Below, piece by piece: positions 1 to 7,656 of a DNA stretch of 23,008 bases. The notes beneath the pieces are model-generated. The model ran no database searches and was not told where the DNA came from. It saw only the letters and a program-made list of their open reading frames with translations. Source of the stretch: a virus. Within the stretch, counting starts at the first letter, position 1, and each line of letters begins with the position of its first letter. A program made the translations under genes and the position numbers. The DNA lies in IMG/VR virus record IMGVR_UViG_3300027687_000681, positions 1-23,008 of that record; one strand, given 5' to 3'.

Positions 1-75
1 ATCAACAGTAATAGAACCTACAATGGTGCTACCATCAATTAATCTAACCATACGATAATCTGTTTTTTTAGTCAT
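1..75 (-). CDS. Small protein of unknown function, 5' end only
   Basis: The first 25 codons of a gene run off the left edge of the window. The start is the ATG at 73-75. It lies 8 nt downstream of the stop codon of a uvsW 3' remnant, which suggests that this gene once followed uvsW directly. The visible sequence begins MTKKTDYRMVRL and continues IDGSTIVGSITVD. A hydrophobic strand followed by a D-G turn and a second strand loosely recalls the Sm1 motif of LSm/Hfq-type folds, but 25 residues are too few for a family call. The reading frame is open throughout the visible part. Confidence 0.5.
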   Translation of the reverse strand, partial: MTKKTDYRMVRLIDGSTIVGSITVD

Positions 76-83
76 ATTAATAT

Positions 84-127
84 TTAGTCTTTTAGGTTAA
101 CGTTGTGTATTTCATATTCAAATTCTT
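84..127 (-). pseudogene. Remnant of the uvsW 3' end, left-hand copy of the 40-bp direct repeat
   Basis: Positions 88-127 match 1311-1350 at 39 of 40 bases; the only difference is 105 against 1328. Read in the uvsW frame, this copy encodes EFEYEIHNVNLK, then D and a TAA stop at 84-86. The intact uvsW has the same residues and then continues with EKIEGDK. The single mismatch inside the repeat is synonymous (CAC against CAT, both His). No start codon or independent gene is attached. I read it as the ancestral end of uvsW, stranded downstream of amt when amt entered. The amt stop codon (126-128) overlaps the repeat by 2 nt. Confidence 0.85.
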
Positions 128-1289
128 ACTTTCTTTTATTCATAAACTCTGGATAAGCATTGCCAGTACCTTCATACATATCAGAGCCAACAAGTTCTTC
201 TTCTTTGCCTACCCTAATACCAATTGTCTTGCCTAGTATAAACCACACCGCATATGATGTTGTAAACACAAAGCCACCGATAATACCAATACCATATAGT
301 TGTGCTAGTATTGTTCCATCAATGTTAAAGATAGGAACTAATAGTAATCCAATTATACCTGCAATACCGTGTACAGAAATAGCACCAACTGGATCGTCAA
401 TTCCCCACTTCTCAAGTAAAGTCATAGAAACTGGAATTAAAATTCCACCTAATAGTCCGTATAGTATTGCAAACTCTGGACTTGGTGATAGGGGGTCAGC
501 AGTAATAACAACTAGTCCTGCTAATGCACCGTTTAGTGTTACGTTAAGTACAACTCGTTTTGTCCATAGTTTAGATACAATCATTGCACCTAACAATCCA
601 CCTGAGGCAGCCATGTTAGTGTTTACAAAGATTTTACCTAATGCTTGTGCATCAGATATAGTATCAAATTTTAATTGTGATCCTCCATTAAAGAAAAACC
701 AACCAAGCCATAGGATTAACGTACCTAGTGCAACCAGTGGCATATTGTTTCCTGGAATATTCTTTGGATTGCCATGTTTATCATACTTGCCATCACGAGG
801 TCCAATTAATAATACAGCCGCAAGTGCCGCACTTGCACCAGCCATGTGAACAATGCCAGAACCAGCAAAATCAATAAATCCTAGTCCACTTAAAAATCCA
901 CCTCCCCAAGTCCATTGACCTTCTAGTGGATAAATCACTGCCGCAAATACTGTTGAGAATATCAAGAATGACCATAACTTTTTACGTTCTGCCACTGCTC
1001 CTGAAACAACAGACATTGCAGTTGCAACGAATACCATTTGGAAAAAGAAATCAGCATAGATGGCATGACCTTCTGGCTCAACCCATCCATACATAATTTT
1101 ATAACCGCACAACAAGAACGCAATACTTGCTACTGAAAACAATGCTACGTTCTTGGTTAATATTTCTGTAACATTTTTGGTTCTTACTGAACCTGCTTCA
1201 AGAGCAGTAAATCCTGCCGCCATCCACATAACCATTGCACCTGATATCAAAAAGAATACTGTGTTTAATGCATAGTCTAATTCGTTCAT
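126..1289 (-). CDS. amt: Ammonium transporter (Amt/MEP/Rh family), auxiliary metabolic gene
   Basis: This is a 387-residue inner-membrane channel protein for ammonium uptake, close to full family length, with about eleven hydrophobic segments. Family hallmarks are present: AGFTALEAGSVRTKN in the first helices (25-39), SGAVAER (96-102), the pore pair His148 (in DFAGSGIVHMAGA) and His307 (in DDPVGAISVHGIAG), and Asp140. The C-terminal cytoplasmic motif is recognisable as EEELVGSDMYEGTGNAYPEF. Nothing is truncated, so it looks functional. Its ATG shares one base with the uvsW stop (TAATG), and a GGAGA Shine-Dalgarno lies in the uvsW end, so it is translationally coupled to uvsW. It is not part of the T4 core gene set. 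The flanking 40-bp repeat marks it as an insertion. The inferred role is to raise nitrogen import in the infected cell. Confidence 0.95.
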   Translation of the reverse strand: MNELDYALNTVFFLISGAMVMWMAAGFTALEAGSVRTKNVTEILTKNVALFSVASIAFLLCGYKIMYGWVEPEGHAIYADFFFQMVFVATAMSVVSGAVAERKKLWSFLIFSTVFAAVIYPLEGQWTWGGGFLSGLGFIDFAGSGIVHMAGASAALAAVLLIGPRDGKYDKHGNPKNIPGNNMPLVALGTLILWLGWFFFNGGSQLKFDTISDAQALGKIFVNTNMAASGGLLGAMIVSKLWTKRVVLNVTLNGALAGLVVITADPLSPSPEFAILYGLLGGILIPVSMTLLEKWGIDDPVGAISVHGIAGIIGLLLVPIFNIDGTILAQLYGIGIIGGFVFTTSYAVWFILGKTIGIRVGKEEELVGSDMYEGTGNAYPEFMNKRK

Positions 1290-2800
1290 TATTTATCTCC
1301 TTCTATTTTTTCTTTTAGGTTAACGTTATGTATTTCATATTCAAATTCTTCTTCAGTATAAATGTTGATTCGTTCCTGAAAGTGTTTTAAAGTATAATTC
1401 TCTTTTGACTTATAAATTAAATCATCCGATATATCATATAAAGTGGCATTAACTTTATTATCTCCTAGTCTTAAACCTCTACCGATTGATTGTAGATTTC
1501 TTATTCTGCTTTTAGAAGGACTCGCAAAGATTATATTATGTAAATTCTTAATGTTAATACCAGTAGAAAAAGTACCATAACTTGCTACAATAATAGCATC
1601 ATTTTCGTTCTCAACTATGGCTCTTGCCTTTTCTCTTTCTTCTGTTTCTACGCCACCATATATATAAAAAACCTTTCGATTTTCTTCCGCTTTTTCTTCA
1701 ATAATCTTATGTAAATTTTTACCATGTTTTTCTACAAGTTGAAATAATATTAAAGTATTACCTTTCAGTTTAAGTGCTAGATTACGAATAAAATTATTTC
1801 TAGGTTTACTACCTACAAGATAATCTATCTCGTCTTGATATTTACCATTTGACACAATTTTAGAATTGGCTTCACTGTGTTTAAGAATTAAACATCTAAC
1901 CACTAGATTACTTAACTGTTTCTTATCCATTAACTTTTTAGTTGTAGTTACCTTATTAACAGCGCCGAATAGTCCTTCTAATACTAACTTATGTGTATGA
2001 GCACCATCTAATGTTCCTGTAAGACCGATACGATATTTACAATCAATAAGTTTAGTCATAATTTCTGTTAATGATTTTGATTTAAATAGATGTGCCTCGT
2101 CACCAAACACAACACCAAATTGTTTAAAGTATTCTTTTGGCAACTTATATAAACTTTGCCATGTAGATATCAACACTTTTTTATTAGTTTGATTTGAATA
2201 TCCGCTATATAATCTATGACAATACTTCTTTACATTCCAACCATATGATTCAAAATCGGTATACATTTGTTCTACTAATGATGTTGTAGGAACAATTAAA
2301 AGTATTCTACTATTGTGCTGTTCTTTGATTAGATGAGTGTAGTATCGTATTAAGGAATATATGATGAATGACTTGCCTGATGCAGTAGGACTTACTAGCA
2401 ACGCCCTATTGCGTTTTAAACTATGATATATGGCGTCTATCTGATAATCTCTTGCTTGAAATTTTTGCCCTAAACTATTAGAAAATTTAGTTACCGTTCC
2501 TTTGTCAACCTTGTTATCTATCTCTATACCTTTACCAGCAACTATGCTATACCCTCTTTCATCTGCAAAGGCTTTGATATATGGATATAGTCCAAAGTAT
2601 ATCTCTTTCGTCTTTTGTGAAAACAATCTTATCTTGCCATCCCACATTCTATTTCGAAATGCTGGCATAAATTTGTATCCTGGTACATAGAAAGTAAAAA
2701 ACTCCGATATCTCTCTTTGTATATCAGGCTCAGTTATTACTGTAATGTAAACTTCATTTACCTTTTCTATAATAAGAAGATTAGAATTATCTTTATTCAT
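1289..2800 (-). CDS. uvsW: UvsW-like superfamily 2 DNA/RNA helicase
   Basis: This 503-residue SF2 helicase has the length and gene neighbourhood of T4 UvsW, which unwinds R-loops and branched DNA and switches replication from origin-dependent to recombination-dependent initiation. Visible motifs are Walker A PTASGKSF (138-145), the DEAH box GDEAH (233-237), motif III GLTGT (259-263) and motif VI QSIGRGLR (437-444). The N-terminal 100 residues correspond to the UvsW N-domain. It lies three bases after a 2OG oxygenase gene and close to uvsY, keeping the recombination genes near each other. Its final codons, ending KEKIEGDK, contain one copy of the 40-bp repeat and appear rebuilt compared with the older end KD-stop preserved at 84-127. 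Confidence 0.95.
   Translation of the reverse strand: MNKDNSNLLIIEKVNEVYITVITEPDIQREISEFFTFYVPGYKFMPAFRNRMWDGKIRLFSQKTKEIYFGLYPYIKAFADERGYSIVAGKGIEIDNKVDKGTVTKFSNSLGQKFQARDYQIDAIYHSLKRNRALLVSPTASGKSFIIYSLIRYYTHLIKEQHNSRILLIVPTTSLVEQMYTDFESYGWNVKKYCHRLYSGYSNQTNKKVLISTWQSLYKLPKEYFKQFGVVFGDEAHLFKSKSLTEIMTKLIDCKYRIGLTGTLDGAHTHKLVLEGLFGAVNKVTTTKKLMDKKQLSNLVVRCLILKHSEANSKIVSNGKYQDEIDYLVGSKPRNNFIRNLALKLKGNTLILFQLVEKHGKNLHKIIEEKAEENRKVFYIYGGVETEEREKARAIVENENDAIIVASYGTFSTGINIKNLHNIIFASPSKSRIRNLQSIGRGLRLGDNKVNATLYDISDDLIYKSKENYTLKHFQERINIYTEEEFEYEIHNVNLKEKIEGDK
1311..1350. repeat. Right-hand copy of the 40-bp direct repeat flanking amt
   Basis: This is the copy inside the intact uvsW coding sequence, covering codons for FEYEIHNVNLK near the C terminus. 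It matches 88-127 in the same orientation with one mismatch, at an offset of 1223 bp. The segment between the two copies is amt together with its ribosome-binding site and the last uvsW codons. Confidence 0.95.
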
Positions 2801-2803
2801 AAT

Positions 2804-3367
2804 TTACATAACCCAAGTCATAATGCTATATCTAACACCACTAGTAACTTTTTTAACTTCATGTGGATACATAAAGTTTGACGGAAACACTACAGCAGAA
2901 CCCTTGCCTTTATCAATTGTTTCACCACACAATGTAAATTCACCACCATCATAATCTTCGTTTAGAAATATTAAAGATGTTATATGTGGATAACCTTGTT
3001 TTTGCCCATGACTATGATGAATATTATCTATATGTTCTTTCATAAACCCACCAGTTTCATAACAGTTAATTCTAAAATGTGTATATTCTTGAACCTTTAT
3101 TTTATCATGTACACTAACATAATCATTGACCGTTTTTTCAAAACCTTTTTGTAAAGTTTCGTAAAACTTATCTTTTGGTCCAATCCAATAATCTTTCATC
3201 TCAACTTTAGATGTGCCTGTGTTGCTATTTGTTGTTGTAAAGGTAGATGTTTTCCACCCCTTAAAGTGGTCTTTATTGTAGTAATTAATTATATTATCAC
3301 AGGTAGTTGAATCTAATAATTTTGGATAACAAAATATAAAGTTAGAAATTTCCTGATTGGAATTCAT
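2804..3367 (-). CDS. 2-oxoglutarate/Fe(II)-dependent oxygenase, prolyl-hydroxylase-like
   Basis: A 187-residue protein of the 2OG-Fe(II) oxygenase superfamily. The jelly-roll ligands are visible: HxD as His112 and Asp114 (KEHIDN), the distal His169 (FMYPHEVKK), and Arg179 (SGVRYSIMTW), the expected 2-oxoglutarate binder. The strand TSLIFLNEDYDGGEF and a following GKGSAVVFPS segment fit P4H/PiuC-type enzymes. A clear AGGAG lies 6 nt before the ATG. Its start overlaps the end of the upstream oxygenase gene by 26 nt, and uvsW follows 3 nt after its stop, so the three should be co-transcribed. The substrate is unknown; protein side-chain or nucleobase hydroxylation are possibilities, not conclusions. 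Confidence 0.88.
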   Translation of the reverse strand: MNSNQEISNFIFCYPKLLDSTTCDNIINYYNKDHFKGWKTSTFTTTNSNTGTSKVEMKDYWIGPKDKFYETLQKGFEKTVNDYVSVHDKIKVQEYTHFRINCYETGGFMKEHIDNIHHSHGQKQGYPHITSLIFLNEDYDGGEFTLCGETIDKGKGSAVVFPSNFMYPHEVKKVTSGVRYSIMTWVM

Positions 3368-3941
3368 GGTGTTCTCCTAATTGACCTCTTATCTGTATAT
3401 TCCATGATATACTTATACGATTACTCGTTGATAGATTTGTAGGTACCCAATGTACTAACCATGAAGGGAAGATTATTATTCGATTTGTTTTTGCTTTATA
3501 ATGTAATAGATTTGTATTGTTATTATCGATTTTTTTTCTTGGTAGTATAACGCCTGCACCTGGTCTTGGGTCCTGAAAAGTAATACCTGGTGTAGTTTCG
3601 CCAGCGTCTAAATAAAAAACGCCACTTAAAAAATTGTTTGAATGAGTATGAGGCTGATGAGTTTCATGTTGTTTTAATACATTGGCCCACATATCAGTTA
3701 TTTCTATTTCATCTGCCTTATAATTTAACTTATCAAGTATTTCAAAACTTGACTTACTAACCTCTCTAGTGAAATCTTTAAAAATATCCATCTTATCTAA
3801 ATTCGGACTTGATTGCCAATTAGGTCTTTTATCTCTTATATATTGATCTAACACTTCACCTTTCATAGTATAAATTATATCAGGACTAATGAAATCGTCC
3901 TTAATGAAAAGATGTGTTGAGAATATTTCTTGATGTTCCAC
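3342..3941 (-). CDS. 2OG-Fe(II) oxygenase of the TIGR02466 type
   Basis: A 199-residue protein with the pattern of the TIGR02466 putative 2OG-Fe(II) oxygenases: MWANVLKQ (84-91), HQPHTHSNNFLSGVFYLD (95-112), FQDPRPG (122-128), then IIFPSWLVHWV (156-166) with the distal His164, and NRISISWN (174-181) with Arg175. It is a clear paralogue of the protein at 22224-22832, sharing MWAN, THxH, SGV(F/Y)Y and DPRPG. The start is a GTG at 3939-3941 sharing its first base with the uvsY stop (TAGTG), so translation is coupled to uvsY. No nearby in-frame ATG would keep the N-terminal family region. Biochemical function is unknown. Confidence 0.85.
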   Translation of the reverse strand: MEHQEIFSTHLFIKDDFISPDIIYTMKGEVLDQYIRDKRPNWQSSPNLDKMDIFKDFTREVSKSSFEILDKLNYKADEIEITDMWANVLKQHETHQPHTHSNNFLSGVFYLDAGETTPGITFQDPRPGAGVILPRKKIDNNNTNLLHYKAKTNRIIIFPSWLVHWVPTNLSTSNRISISWNIQIRGQLGEHHEFQSGNF

Positions 3942-4369
3942 TATATGGCACCACTAGTGAATTTCTTCCACTCAATAGCGTTTTTAATTAGGAATGTTCT
4001 ATTATTAATACTTCTTAATACTTGTTCAAGATACTTAACTATTTGATTTTGATATGCAACCTTTTGATCTGCTTTTTGTAAATCTGAATCTGAATCCATA
4101 TAGATATGTACATCTGATTTTAATACCTTTATGTCAAAAGGCTTTAAAATATATACAGCTGCATCTGCCTTGCCTGTATAATATTCCCATTTATCTCTTA
4201 ACATACTTTTATGCTCATATTCTGATTTCTTTAATAGTAAAGAAAACTTATTAAAGTATTGTAAATATTTGTTATGTAGCAAAGGTATCTTAATTGATTC
4301 AGCATCTAATTCTGTATCATCTAATTTAAAATCCCTATCAACTGATTTTTGTAATTCTTCTAATGTCAT
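3941..4369 (-). CDS. uvsY: UvsY-like recombination mediator
   Basis: A 142-residue protein, close to the 137 residues of T4 UvsY, the mediator that loads UvsX recombinase onto gp32-covered single-stranded DNA. It shares the N-terminal start (MTLEELQKSVDRDFKLD), the central basic region KSMLRDKWEYYTGKADA (55-71), a DSDSDLQKAD stretch, and the C-terminal NRTFLIKNAIEWKKF segment in the positions expected from T4. It is mostly alpha-helical and highly charged. Its position, downstream of the capsid genes and close to uvsW, is typical of marine T4-like phages. The UvsX recombinase itself is not in this window. Confidence 0.85.
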   Translation of the reverse strand: MTLEELQKSVDRDFKLDDTELDAESIKIPLLHNKYLQYFNKFSLLLKKSEYEHKSMLRDKWEYYTGKADAAVYILKPFDIKVLKSDVHIYMDSDSDLQKADQKVAYQNQIVKYLEQVLRSINNRTFLIKNAIEWKKFTSGAI

Positions 4370-4393
4370 AATGATATTATATCACCTTTTCGG

Positions 4394-5194
4394 TTAATTG
4401 TAAAGCATCTGTGCCATTTTTTCTTGTGTTATATATTTTAGATTAGCACACGAACTCCATTCGGGTATTTCGGAAGCGGTAAAATCACCAGGAGTATCGC
4501 TGTTTACCTTATAGAATTGCACTTTGCTAAACTTATCAAAGGTATTCTTATGTTGTAGTATCCAGTTATATGTTTCATCTGGATTATTAGGATTCATTGC
4601 CAATGCGTCTTTCTTAGAATAACCTTTTGTACCTGCATACAAGTTATTGATTTTATCATTATCAGAATATAGATCATGTCCTACAATGAATACTGTTTCA
4701 GCACCCAAATCACAGGCAAGATGTACTGAACGACTACCTGTTGCATAGGCAAATCCATCTACATCTGGTTCTATACTTTTAACAGGACCTTGCTTTTCTT
4801 TCACTTCGGTCACATATGCAATTCCTAAATTCTTTCCTTTAACTGCTGTAAAAACTCCATCGGCACCATGATAAACACATTCATTTCCCCCTTCGGTGGC
4901 GTCGGAATCAATTTTTGTTTTACAAGAGCGTAGCATCTCCATTGCAACCATATTCGGTATTGGAGTCCAATAACCTAAATACGCTTTCATATTGTTAAGA
5001 TTTGCCTTACGATATATCTCATGGGAAATTCTTGAATCTACTGCCACTAATATGTCAGGAGTGAAGTCACGATAGATAGCATTACAACCTATTACAGTTG
5101 CATACTTTTTCATTTTTTCGAGATCTAAGCCTTGTCTTGATTGCCCATTACCCAGGCAGACTGCTATTTTGTTCCATGTTAAAGTCTTCATCAC
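4394..5194 (-). CDS. Rossmann-like protein resembling DUF115/MptE-type or sialyltransferase-like domains
   Basis: A 266-residue protein of uncertain function. It opens with KIAVCLGNGQSRQGLDLE, the glycine-rich nucleotide-type loop typical of DUF115-like domains, followed by VIGCNAIYRDFTPDILVAVD (33-52). A second conserved block, YATGSRSVHLACDLGAETVFIVGHDLY, resembles the half where such domains recognise the nucleotide part of a CMP-sugar or related ligand. An SD of AGGA precedes both the GTG at 5192-5194 and the ATG at 5189-5191, so either may be the start. It lies between the gp3-like gene and uvsY. A glycosyl- or nucleotidyl-transfer role is a weak inference; no catalytic residue is certain. 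Confidence 0.75.
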   Translation of the reverse strand: MMKTLTWNKIAVCLGNGQSRQGLDLEKMKKYATVIGCNAIYRDFTPDILVAVDSRISHEIYRKANLNNMKAYLGYWTPIPNMVAMEMLRSCKTKIDSDATEGGNECVYHGADGVFTAVKGKNLGIAYVTEVKEKQGPVKSIEPDVDGFAYATGSRSVHLACDLGAETVFIVGHDLYSDNDKINNLYAGTKGYSKKDALAMNPNNPDETYNWILQHKNTFDKFSKVQFYKVNSDTPGDFTASEIPEWSSCANLKYITQEKMAQMLYN

Positions 5195-5222
5195 AAATCA
5201 TCCTATATTTTTGTACTATGTA

Positions 5223-5822
5223 TTATGAAGTAGAAATTTGTGCAATTTCGTAATACATATAATTAAAACTTGCTTGTACTTGTAAGTAGTCAACGTCACT
5301 TGCCTTAATATCATAAGACAATGACCCTAAAGAGATGGGATAAACATTTTGAAATCTTATTTCAGTTTTAGCAATATTCTTACTGTTTAAAACTATTAAA
5401 GTTGCGTCTGAATATATACCACCTTCGTCAAGAGGTTGTTTAATAGATGTTCCTGTTGCAACTGTACTTGCTGTTGTTCCTGGAAATCTATCAGCACTTG
5501 TTCCTTGTAGATCTGCAAATTGATTGTGATTTTGTGGAAATCCTAGACCTGTAATCCAGTCGTGTATCTCTTTGTAGTTATTTAAATTTTCATCAACAAG
5601 AAACGAAACATCTAAAGTTTGATAATTTACTTTATCTCCTGCACCAGCAATGTCTTTTAATGGTGTTTCTTGATTAGTCGATCCTAAAGAAATACCAGGT
5701 ATGTTTGCTGTTTGTACAAAAAACTCAACCTGTGGAAGTTTAGACATTTTAAATCTAAACTGAATAGGACTTGCATAGTCAAATTTATCTGGCTCTCTAT
5801 CGAGTATATTTGTTGTTGTCAT
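5223..5822 (-). CDS. gp3-like tail completion / tube-fold protein
   Basis: A 199-residue protein of the gp19/gp3/gp54 tube-fold type. It has FRFKMSKLPQVEFFVQTANIPGISLG (23-48), the typical strand-turn pattern of tail tube domains, then LDVSFLVDENLNNYKEIHDWI, which resembles T4 gp3. The C-terminal half ends in IKASDVDYLQVQASFNYMYYEI, the usual closing strands. It is distinct from the main tube gene at 13005-13532, which carries the gp19 signature. Its place after gp23 and before uvsY matches gene 3 in marine T4-like phages. gp3 caps the tail tube and stabilises the sheath before head joining. An alternative is a second tube paralogue. Its ATG overlaps the upstream small gene by ATGA. Confidence 0.7.
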   Translation of the reverse strand: MTTTNILDREPDKFDYASPIQFRFKMSKLPQVEFFVQTANIPGISLGSTNQETPLKDIAGAGDKVNYQTLDVSFLVDENLNNYKEIHDWITGLGFPQNHNQFADLQGTSADRFPGTTASTVATGTSIKQPLDEGGIYSDATLIVLNSKNIAKTEIRFQNVYPISLGSLSYDIKASDVDYLQVQASFNYMYYEIAQISTS

Positions 5823-5992
5823 AATATTTTGCCTTTATTTTTACCTTGCTTAATCATATATTTTTGTGTTCCATTTGCACCAATCTCTACTTCTTTACGA
5901 GAAAACTTAAACATCTTCATTTCTTTAGCATCTTGAAATTTTCTTTGAACATAATCTAAAACTTTTTGTTTGTTAATTTTATCTCTATCCAT
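5819..5992 (-). CDS. Small basic protein, 57 residues, unknown function
   Basis: The short reading frame runs from the ATG at 5990-5992 to a TGA at 5819-5821 that overlaps the start of the gp3-like gene by ATGA. That overlap, and a GAGGGTG ribosome-binding site just ahead of the ATG, support it as a real gene. The product starts MDRDKINKQKVLDYVQRKF and ends IKQGKNKGKIL; it is rich in Lys and predicted helical in the first half. I recognise no domain. A TATAAATA late box at 6085-6092 lies about 90 nt upstream, so it probably opens the late unit that contains the gp3-like gene. Confidence 0.7.
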   Translation of the reverse strand: MDRDKINKQKVLDYVQRKFQDAKEMKMFKFSRKEVEIGANGTQKYMIKQGKNKGKIL

Positions 5993-6050
5993 TACACCCT
6001 CTTTATTAAATTAAAATTAGGTGCGTTCCTTCAGCTTATGCTTACTACCG

Positions 6051-6070
6051 TCTTGTATAGTTTTACAAGA
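6051..6070. repeat. Inverted repeat in a late leader
   Basis: A 7-bp perfect inverted repeat, TCTTGTA and TACAAGA, is separated by 6 nt. It lies a few bases downstream of the transcription start expected from the TATAAATA box at 6085-6092, in the untranslated leader of the 57-residue gene. No T-run follows on the minus strand, so it is not a terminator. It may be an RNA hairpin or a protein site. Confidence 0.5.
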
Positions 6071-6084
6071 TGAACGTATATTAC

Positions 6085-6092
6085 TATTTATA
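6085..6092 (-). promoter_or_regulatory. T4-type late promoter box TATAAATA
   Basis: This is an exact match to the T4 late promoter -10 consensus, which is recognised by the gp55 sigma factor with gp33/gp45. It stands in non-coding DNA just after the zinc-ribbon gene, with the 57-residue gene and the gp3-like gene downstream. No -35 element is needed for this class. Confidence 0.7.
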
Positions 6093-6097
6093 TGTTT

Positions 6098-6238
6098 TTA
6101 TTGATGCCATCCTAGATCTTCTATTTTTTCACTATTGCAATTCGGACACTGCCATTCGCCATCTTCATCTGGTAACACTAAATCTGGTGGTGTACCTTTC
6201 CATGTGCAATCATAACAATACCAGTTCCACTCTTTCAT
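6098..6238 (-). CDS. 46-residue zinc-ribbon protein
   Basis: A very short gene from the ATG at 6236-6238 to a TAA at 6098-6100. The product begins MKEWNWYCYDCTWKGTPP and contains two CxxC knuckles, Cys8/Cys11 and Cys31/Cys34 (WQCPNCNSE), spaced as in rubredoxin-like zinc ribbons; five Trp residues are also notable. Four-cysteine zinc binding is a confident structural inference, the function is not. T4-type phages use small zinc proteins in regulation and DNA metabolism, but I cannot assign this one. It lies alone between the gp23 terminator and a late promoter. No Shine-Dalgarno is visible and no other in-frame start exists before a stop, so it may be translated from a leaderless mRNA. Confidence 0.8.
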   Translation of the reverse strand: MKEWNWYCYDCTWKGTPPDLVLPDEDGEWQCPNCNSEKIEDLGWHQ

Positions 6239-6243
6239 ATAAC

Positions 6244-6251
6244 TATTTATG
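6244..6251 (-). promoter_or_regulatory. Possible late promoter box CATAAATA directly before the zinc-ribbon gene
   Basis: CATAAATA differs from the T4 late consensus at the first base only. If transcription starts 6 nt after the box, as in T4, the first transcribed base would be the A of the zinc-ribbon ATG. It lies 13 nt beyond the T-tract of the capsid terminator, so the gene would otherwise need read-through. Confidence 0.45.
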
Positions 6252-6264
6252 TAAGCATTAGGCT

Positions 6265-6297
6265 AAAAAAAAAGGGTGCCGATTAAAGCACCCTTTT
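6265..6297 (-). terminator. Strong intrinsic terminator after gp23
   Basis: On the minus strand a 10-bp stem, AAAAGGGTGC paired with GCACCCTTTT, encloses an 8-nt loop and runs into a tract of nine T. It begins about 36 nt after the gp23 stop codon. This is a canonical Rho-independent terminator and closes the gp22-gp23 late unit. Confidence 0.92.
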
Positions 6298-6333
6298 AAG
6301 ATAGTAACTCTACTTTAGAAGTAGAAAGTAACC

Positions 6334-7656
6334 TTACATTATATTCGTTACCTTCGTTCTTCTGTAATAAACGTTTTGATCACCAGCTGCAGGTGACGTT
6401 AAGTCAATTGCACCTAGACCGTTAGAAGTTGCGAAAGGATTTGCAACCATACCGTACCTGGTTTTGAACCCAATTTTCGGTTGGAAGCTATCTTGACCAA
6501 CTGCACGTACCATTTGTAATGGAACGTAAGGACAATAGAAAATACCACTGTCGTATGGTGAAGCACCTTTGTAACCTACAACGTAGAATTGTGATGCAGA
6601 AACGTTAGCACTGTATGGATCAATGTAAACTCTAAATTTACCATTTAATACACCAGCGAAAGTGTTTCCTGTATCATCAACGTTTAGATTAGTAGCAAGA
6701 GCAGGAGCGTAATCTAATACACCACTCATTTGAAGTGCCGAAGCAACATCAGCTGAACAGATAATTATATTACCTTTTCCTCTTCTTGTTTGTTGACCAA
6801 TTGCATTAGCATCTCTCTCTAATTGAAATAATAGTCCTTTGAATTTCTCAACTGACCATCTACCATTAGAGTCTGTGTCTAAGTCAAATATACCAGCAGT
6901 AGTAACATTAACTTGAGCACCAGCTTTTGCAGTAGTGTAGATTGTTCTAACAACTTCTCTATTGATTTCCGCAAGGATTTCAGAAGAAAGAATGTTAGCA
7001 AGTTCTGTTTCAGCATCTAAACCATGGATTGCTTTTAAGTCTTGAGCAAGTTCCATAGTGTATTCTGCTTTAAGAGCTCTTGATTTTGCAGTAACCGTAA
7101 CTTTATCGATTGAGAAAGCCATTTCAGCAAACTCGTCAGTACCATCGCCAAGCGTTTCTGCTTGAGCAGTAGTCATACCATCACCAGTAGTGTAAGCACC
7201 AGCAGCAGGACTATCGTTTAAAGTTGCAGGGTTAGTACCAGCTTGTGCAGATGTAGAACCTGAACCGCCAGCAGCATCTCTTGATGAGAAGTCTGAATCA
7301 GCTTCGTCAAATAATGCTTCAGCACCAGCTTGTGTACCAAATCTGGATTTCATAGCGAAGATAAGACCAGTTGGTCCAGTCATCGGTTGAACACCACAGA
7401 TGTCATAAGCAATAAGATTAGGCATTGCTCTTCGAACAAGTGATATTAAAACAGGATCCCAATTGTCAATTGAAGCACTAGTTGCGTTAGCCGGTGCAGC
7501 TTCTGACATAAATGATCTGTCTTCTCTAACTGCTTTTTCTTGGTTTTCCAAGATAACAGTTGTTACAGCTCTTTTGTATGCGTCACCGATTTTTGGTAAA
7601 TCAGGATGCTCCAATACTGGCTGCCATTTGTTTTGTAATGTTTCAGTAAGATACAT
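6334..7656 (-). CDS. gp23: Major capsid protein gp23
   Basis: A 440-residue T4-type major capsid protein (T4 gp23 has 521). The N-terminal block KWQPVLEHPDLPKIGDAYKR, then VLISLVRRAMPNLIAYDICGVQPMTGPTG, is the hallmark of this family. The C-terminal half contains GKFRVYIDPY and GYKGASPYDSGIFYCPYVPLQ, also diagnostic. A likely gp21 cleavage point is after Glu52 (FMSE|AAPAN), which would leave a mature chain of about 388 residues; this is inferred from the gp21 rule, not shown. The AGGAGAG ribosome site is strong. The gene is visibly richer in GCA/GCT Ala and in GC than its neighbours, as expected for the most abundant virion protein. The terminator at 6265-6297 follows it. Confidence 0.97.
   Translation of the reverse strand: MYLTETLQNKWQPVLEHPDLPKIGDAYKRAVTTVILENQEKAVREDRSFMSEAAPANATSASIDNWDPVLISLVRRAMPNLIAYDICGVQPMTGPTGLIFAMKSRFGTQAGAEALFDEADSDFSSRDAAGGSGSTSAQAGTNPATLNDSPAAGAYTTGDGMTTAQAETLGDGTDEFAEMAFSIDKVTVTAKSRALKAEYTMELAQDLKAIHGLDAETELANILSSEILAEINREVVRTIYTTAKAGAQVNVTTAGIFDLDTDSNGRWSVEKFKGLLFQLERDANAIGQQTRRGKGNIIICSADVASALQMSGVLDYAPALATNLNVDDTGNTFAGVLNGKFRVYIDPYSANVSASQFYVVGYKGASPYDSGIFYCPYVPLQMVRAVGQDSFQPKIGFKTRYGMVANPFATSNGLGAIDLTSPAAGDQNVYYRRTKVTNIM

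Follow-up and report, generated by a model that had tools for sequence, protein, structure and literature searches.

Gene order at the uvsW-amt locus

The window, meaning the whole 23,008-nucleotide stretch analysed here, is a 23-kb IMG/VR record from a T4-like phage. Its minus strand carries the genes for gp23, the scaffold and the prohead protease, followed by uvsY, two 2OG-Fe(II) oxygenase genes, uvsW, amt and the 5′ end of a PHROG-471 gene, and profile searches identified the neighbours of amt as phage genes, including uvsW, uvsY, gp23 and gp21. The features at the amt end of the window are listed below, with related contigs and loci given L numbers.

1–75, minus strand: 5′ end of the PHROG-471 gene, the native successor of uvsW, present as allele sm2 (identical to L164 and L162 over window positions 1–127)
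76–83, minus strand: native 8-nt spacer from the uvsW stop to the next start codon (equal gap in L002, L003 and L164)
84–127, minus strand: outer copy, a stranded uvsW 3′ end made up of the repeat (88–127), the ancestral Asp codon and a TAA stop (84–86), which is now outside the translated part of uvsW
126–1289, minus strand: amt, ammonium transporter of 387 aa, the cargo gene (Pfam PF00909, Ammonium_transp, E = 1.7e-91)
1289–1310, minus strand: junction segment, a 7-codon uvsW extension and stop that overlaps the amt start (TAATG)
1296–1304, minus strand: strong Shine-Dalgarno-like sequence AGAAGGAGA before amt, translated within the uvsW extension EKIEGDK (seen in the four amt-carrying contigs only)
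1311–1350, minus strand: inner copy of the 40-bp repeat, the functional uvsW 3′ end
1289–2800, minus strand: uvsW helicase gene, allele A (PHROG 16, E = 9.6e-108; Pfam UvsW_N)

A single base is shared by the amt start and the uvsW stop within TAATG, and the amt stop codon (126–128) has two bases in common with the outer copy. The start of the next gene (position 75) lies 8 nt beyond the TAA of the outer copy. PHROG 471 is annotated as 'methylamine utilization' in cyanophages, and the match of this gene to DUF6561 was weak.

The best match to UvsW among phage isolates was that of Pelagibacter phage Mosig (61.8% identity), in which the order is gp23, tail tube, uvsY, oxygenase, uvsW, PHROG-471 gene and gp55 (late sigma), with amt absent. 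In HTVC008M, a small gene and then gp55 directly follow uvsW. With T4-like core genes nearest to those of a SAR11 phage isolate and the same gene order as Mosig, the window belongs with the T4-like pelagiphages (Kyanoviridae), and the host of the amt-carrying phages is probably a SAR11 bacterium, as judged from sequence relationships. Two further features of this region were observed. Between uvsY and uvsW there are two adjoining 2OG-Fe(II) oxygenase genes that belong to separate Pfam families (window positions 2804–3941) where Mosig has one, and a 266-aa open reading frame (4394–5194) between uvsY and the tail tube gene matched only PHROG 30607, of unknown function.

A 40-bp repeat flanks amt

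An earlier note on this sequence, made from the letters alone, had described amt as flanked by two near-identical segments, and this was confirmed. Positions 88–127 and 1311–1350 are in the same orientation and are equal in 39 of 40 bases, and the match can be extended to 81–127 and 1304–1350 (47 nt, 94%). No comparable repeat was found in 100 dinucleotide-shuffled versions of the window. The one mismatch is synonymous, as the note had stated, with His encoded by CAC at position 105 in the outer copy and by CAT at position 1328 in the inner copy. The description of the outer copy as a stranded uvsW tail also held, as in the uvsW frame it reads EFEYEIHNVNLKD and then TAA at 84–86. The inner copy runs on as EKIEGDK and a stop, again as described, and a slight likeness to the native sequence continues further, to AAATAG, with AA replacing CT.

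The repeat was examined for properties other than coding. No RNA structure was found (0 kcal/mol fold, z +1.5), and there was no promoter or terminator match in the repeat or at the borders of amt. Synonymous variation in the last 13 codons of uvsW was 0.439 against a gene median of 0.403, so is not reduced, and the possibility that the uvsW tail is a selected regulatory element was rejected on this basis. As no sign of special constraint on the uvsW tail was seen, the idea that the outer copy is retained to serve the next gene as its leader is unsupported.

Relatives with an empty site

A search of IMG/VR with UvsW produced 80 loci, one of which (L001) included amt. Approximately 75 related uvsW loci had no amt at this site and a single copy of the repeat. 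In these relatives, uvsW ends in NxxLKD/E and a stop, or very nearly so, and the PHROG-471 gene comes next where the contig extends far enough. The arrangement anticipated for genomes lacking amt, namely uvsW ending in NVNLKD and a stop, was seen as NVNLKD- or NINLKD-type tails followed by the next gene in L002, L003, L164 and about 70 more. Among the roughly 80 related loci, none without amt retained both copies, so the finding that the note had named as a refutation was not made.

Two of the empty sites are near-isogenic with amt carriers, so that almost identical phages occur with and without amt. L002 is colinear with window positions 1303–6156, with 99.7% identity over 4854 bp, and lacks amt. 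L164, recovered from a DNA scan for the tail, also lacks amt and shares 99.87% identity over 3699 bp with L081, a contig that carries it. The tail in L164 is ...CACAACGTTAACCTAAAAGACTAA followed by 8 nt and ATG. The last 127 bp of this contig, comprising the uvsW tail, the stop, the spacer and the beginning of the following gene, match window positions 1–127 base for base. The ancestral junction proposed in the note, with uvsW ending at 84–86 directly ahead of the gene that starts at 75, is therefore found in nature as the empty site of L164.

Probable exchange between alleles at the repeat copies

Four contigs, originating from several data sets, carry amt at this site (the window, L001, L081 and L082), and there are no DNA differences between them within amt. 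Their surroundings fall into distinct alleles. Two uvsW alleles, approximately 12% apart, were distinguished, A in the window, L001 and L002, and B in L081, L082 and L164. The downstream gene is found as sm1 in L001, L081, L082 and L002, and as sm2 in the window, L164 and L162; further downstream, L162 and L001 differ by approximately 16%. The resulting haplotypes are A+amt+sm2 (window), A+amt+sm1 (L001), B+amt+sm1 (L081 and L082), A-empty-sm1 (L002) and B-empty-sm2 (L164), all read from assembled contigs, some perhaps from one project, in which left and right alleles, separated by the 1.2 kb of identical amt, could be wrongly phased. Both amt states were seen with each uvsW allele and with each downstream allele, giving all four combinations in either case. 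Given a single origin of amt, recombination or repeated gain and loss is therefore needed.

The positions at which the alleles change were examined. L001 and L081 diverge by approximately 12% across uvsW as far as the mismatch base of the inner copy, which also differs, and past this base there are no mismatches for approximately 2.8 kb, including amt, the outer copy and the sequence that follows. On the other side, divergence between the window and L001 begins just past the outer copy. The apparent allele switches are thus located at the repeat copies. If an A-type carrier was produced from an empty A genome and a B carrier, the crossover would fall within the 17-bp segment AACGTTAACCTAAAAGA that ends the repeat. 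In L081 and L082 the two repeats are perfect (40/40) and the outer copy has CAC in every carrier, and these observations point to a B-type (CAC) genome as the background in which the insertion would have occurred. Spread of the insertion among differing phage backgrounds via recombination at the repeats, which adds to the earlier reading, is supported by these alignments.

The ends of the contigs are also informative. The window and L164 have exactly 127 terminal bases in common, and this 127-mer is also the beginning of L162. L002 terminates in a 127-mer that starts one base past the repeat mismatch, and the base before it is C in L001, L081 and L082 and T in L002. The window extends only 127 bp past the start of the outer copy, and its end is an assembly fork. 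We infer that the shared ends were generated by a k = 127 de Bruijn graph in which two sequences enter one path, and because the 127-mer ends fit this configuration, the samples probably hold amt carriers and non-carriers together.

Properties and source of amt

The product of amt is a member of the Amt/Mep/Rh family (PF00909, 307 bits) and includes the Amt histidine motifs FAGxxVH and SVHGxxG at residues 141 and 305, respectively. Its nearest relatives, with 94 and 93% protein identity, are encoded by the phage contigs L083 and L084 at other loci. In L083, amt lies between thyX and purC, while in L084 it is followed by a fatty-acid desaturase gene and thyX. The dN/dS value was 0.10 in comparison with L083 and 0.14 with L084, indicating purifying selection on amt. 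A tree built from 80 Amt rows placed the window with L083 and L084, within a large clade from viral contigs. As the nearest relatives are phage contigs within a viral clade, the immediate source of amt was most likely another phage.

A cellular donor was considered and rejected, as a pattern-based search of 84,980 genomes confirmed four relatives, the best of which was 67% identical. Searches with the leader and the 3′ end of amt recovered no donor at a different locus, only the same contigs, and no donor molecule bearing both flanks was found. In cultured phage isolates, there was no amt with more than 39% identity. One contig in the tree, L165, is labelled Dehalococcoidia UBA1152 and its Amt is nested among the viral rows; the label is doubtful because amt adjoins aceE.

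As a host-like gene absent from close relatives (L002, L003, L164 and others), amt can be classed as an auxiliary metabolic gene or moron in the broad sense. It falls outside the strict definition of a moron, which includes a promoter and terminator of its own, and overlaps uvsW by one base. Family knowledge and the purifying selection together suggest, as the most likely function of amt, an increase in ammonium uptake by the infected cell.

Proposed acquisition of amt by duplicative insertion

We propose, with a probability of roughly 0.86, that the arrangement was left behind when a single gene, amt, was recently inserted, with duplication, at the boundary between uvsW and the PHROG-471 gene of a T4-like pelagiphage. 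The ancestor would have had a uvsW ending in NVNLKD and a stop, with the next gene 8 nt on. An amt gene with its own ribosome-binding site, drawn from the pool of amt genes in marine phages, would have been joined on one side to the end of uvsW and on the other to a duplicate of the 40 bp that end uvsW. The first join may have arisen via illegitimate recombination between overlapping ends, perhaps assisted by microhomology, during phage replication. Subsequent spread between genomes would be by homologous recombination in or beside the repeat, because the single copy in each empty genome can pair with either end of the cassette. The entry of amt together with a second copy of the uvsW end, as the note had envisaged, is supported by the empty sites, by the polymorphism in amt presence and by the finding of one amt on differing uvsW and downstream alleles that switch at the repeat copies.

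The duplication of the border leaves both neighbours intact, as uvsW gains seven codons and the next gene keeps its native upstream sequence. With only 8 nt separating the uvsW stop from the following start codon, few kinds of insertion other than a border-duplicating one would leave both genes unharmed. The ribosome-binding site of amt (AGAAGGAGA, 1296–1304) has been turned into the uvsW extension. Recombination between the two copies could also remove amt precisely, and loss by this route is possible and fits the empty alleles, but it cannot be distinguished from the ancestral state because an exact deletion would recreate the original sequence.

The same final layout would result if the end of uvsW had first been duplicated in tandem and amt had entered the duplicated segment later. 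Tandem duplications arise by T4-type recombination. However, no intermediate with two tails and no amt was present in the approximately 80 related loci, and the repeat ends exactly at the borders of amt, with the amt stop sharing two bases with one copy and the leader beginning at the end of the other, making this order of events unlikely. The layout could instead be an artefact of assembly, with amt originating elsewhere and the 40-bp repeat marking a false join. The contigs are metagenomic and the graph is branched, with the window and L164 ending on the same base in a common 127-mer. Against this, both the uvsW-amt junction and the junction of amt with the outer copy recur in the window, L001, L081 and L082, a 40-bp repeat is much shorter than k = 127, and TAATG is common to uvsW and amt with the extension in frame. 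As the four contigs concur and the forks at the 127-mers are consistent, a false join was judged very unlikely.

Direct repeats around an insert are also the signature of a staggered cut, as would be expected if a transposon or homing endonuclease had delivered amt with a target-site duplication. In this case amt is the sole gene in the cassette, neither a transposase nor an endonuclease was present among the genes scanned and the cassette ends have no inverted repeat. The target duplications of transposons are usually shorter than 40 bp. With both terminal inverted repeats and a transposase not found, a transposon was rejected, and delivery by a mobile element of either type is highly improbable. 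Gene shuffling via promoter/stem-loop (PeSL) modules has been reported in T4-type phages (cited in PMC4503421), and repeated terminators are found on either side of amt at some other loci (L145). Mobilization of amt by flanking modules of this type is likewise highly improbable, as the repeat is uvsW coding sequence with a predicted fold of 0 kcal/mol (z +1.5) and no promoter or terminator match, and neither an early promoter with a stem-loop nor any other hairpin was present in the repeated border.

Comparison with known systems

A duplicative insertion of amt followed by exchange at the repeats belongs to a class of mechanism that is not foreign to phage biology. Virus-borne ammonium transporters, presumed to aid nitrogen uptake during infection, are known from oxygen-minimum-zone viruses, including a T4-like one, as glnK-amtB (PMC8115048), and an Amt is also reported for an Ostreococcus virus (cited in PMC9083009). 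Unlike these, the amt described here is single, without glnK or its own promoter and terminator, and its translation overlaps that of uvsW; the carrier is a pelagiphage-like T4 relative in which the gene is polymorphic for presence and has left an insertion scar. PeSL mobile regulatory cassettes, as far as they are described in the citing paper (Arbiol 2010, cited in PMC4503421), are similar in that short border repeats permit homologous shuffling of accessory genes, but the present repeat belongs to a core gene for recombination, of which it forms the 3′ end, and has no stem-loop or promoter.

Accessory genes are also gained and lost in the marine T4-like cyanophage S-PM2, where the 'ORFanage' region is spontaneously lost and illegitimate recombination and mispackaging were proposed (PMC4503421). 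That account makes no mention of repeats, whereas the present case concerns a single gene with a defined 40-bp repeat. Recombination and gene turnover likewise distinguish close relatives among natural cyanophage ecotypes (PMC6722890), but in the present case the breakpoints of a single gain and of the later exchanges can be seen at the level of the base. In the open-licence literature, we found no published core-gene tail duplication bordering a metabolic gene with both empty alleles.

Acquisition of metabolic genes by phages is usually inferred long afterwards. Here, the event is recent and can be followed from its join points, from two empty alleles and from several recombinant carriers, making the gain and swapping of a metabolic gene visible at single-base resolution in phages of ocean bacteria that are probably very abundant. 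In read data, the two amt-border junctions and the empty-site junction would allow acquisition, exchange and possible loss to be counted, giving a carrier frequency per sample that could be compared with ammonium availability.

Repeats and inverted arms at other loci

Stranded tails of core genes may be a general route for single-gene uptake and transfer in marine T4-like phages, though at present this is a tentative suggestion and somewhat doubtful. If it is correct, the border of a core gene becomes a repeat that matches every empty relative, and the gene can be exchanged or removed without a mobility gene; L108/L172 and the purC gene of L083 would be further cases. The stranded-tail layout recurs with different genes in L108 (3003–4253) and L172 (261–1144), where a gene for a 144-aa protein is followed by a 232-aa open reading frame of unknown function and a perfect 71-bp copy of the 3′ end of the 144-aa gene. 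An empty site for this cassette was not found, and L171 starts inside the cassette. In L083, purC (6232–6930), one gene past amt, is flanked by a 35-bp direct repeat (6192–6226 and 6964–6998, 34/35), one copy immediately before purC and the other immediately before the next gene. In L138 and L140, amt itself is flanked by a repeat of approximately 78 bp that ends near TATAAATAGA and in which segments of 44 bp and 28 bp match, while L139 has a different, 86-bp repeat that is part of neighbouring small paralogous genes. L108/L172, L083 and L138/L140 are leads towards a general route rather than proof of one.

Other features were noted at these and further loci. A tmRNA gene lies directly after the stranded tail in L108 (4241–4585), L171 (797–1141) and L172 (1132–1476), as predicted by ARAGORN, which marked it with an asterisk and gave the tag as ANDNVFMGDFALAA or ANDNFAYEDFALAA. 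In L145, an identical 26-nt hairpin terminator (AAAGCACCTTCGGGTGCTTTTCTTTT) is found on both sides of amt (4862–4887 and 6186–6211).

In another group of marine phages (L123–L146, L149 and L155), amt is flanked by inverted arms of approximately 9–20 nt, located just before the ribosome-binding site and just past the stop, for example at 2682–2697 and 3898–3913 in L134 and at 243–258 and 1447–1462 in L123. Complementarity of the flanks was not seen in two other amt groups, and no comparable stand-out pairing was found for neighbouring genes in the 11 arm-bearing loci checked. The sequences of the arms vary among lineages with complementarity retained. For 15 distinct loci, the predicted duplex between the 5′ and 3′ untranslated regions had a mean of −23.2 kcal/mol, compared with −14.4 for shuffled 3′ flanks and −16.6 when flanks were swapped between loci. 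On these predictions, the arms look like a covarying long-range pairing of the mRNA ends.
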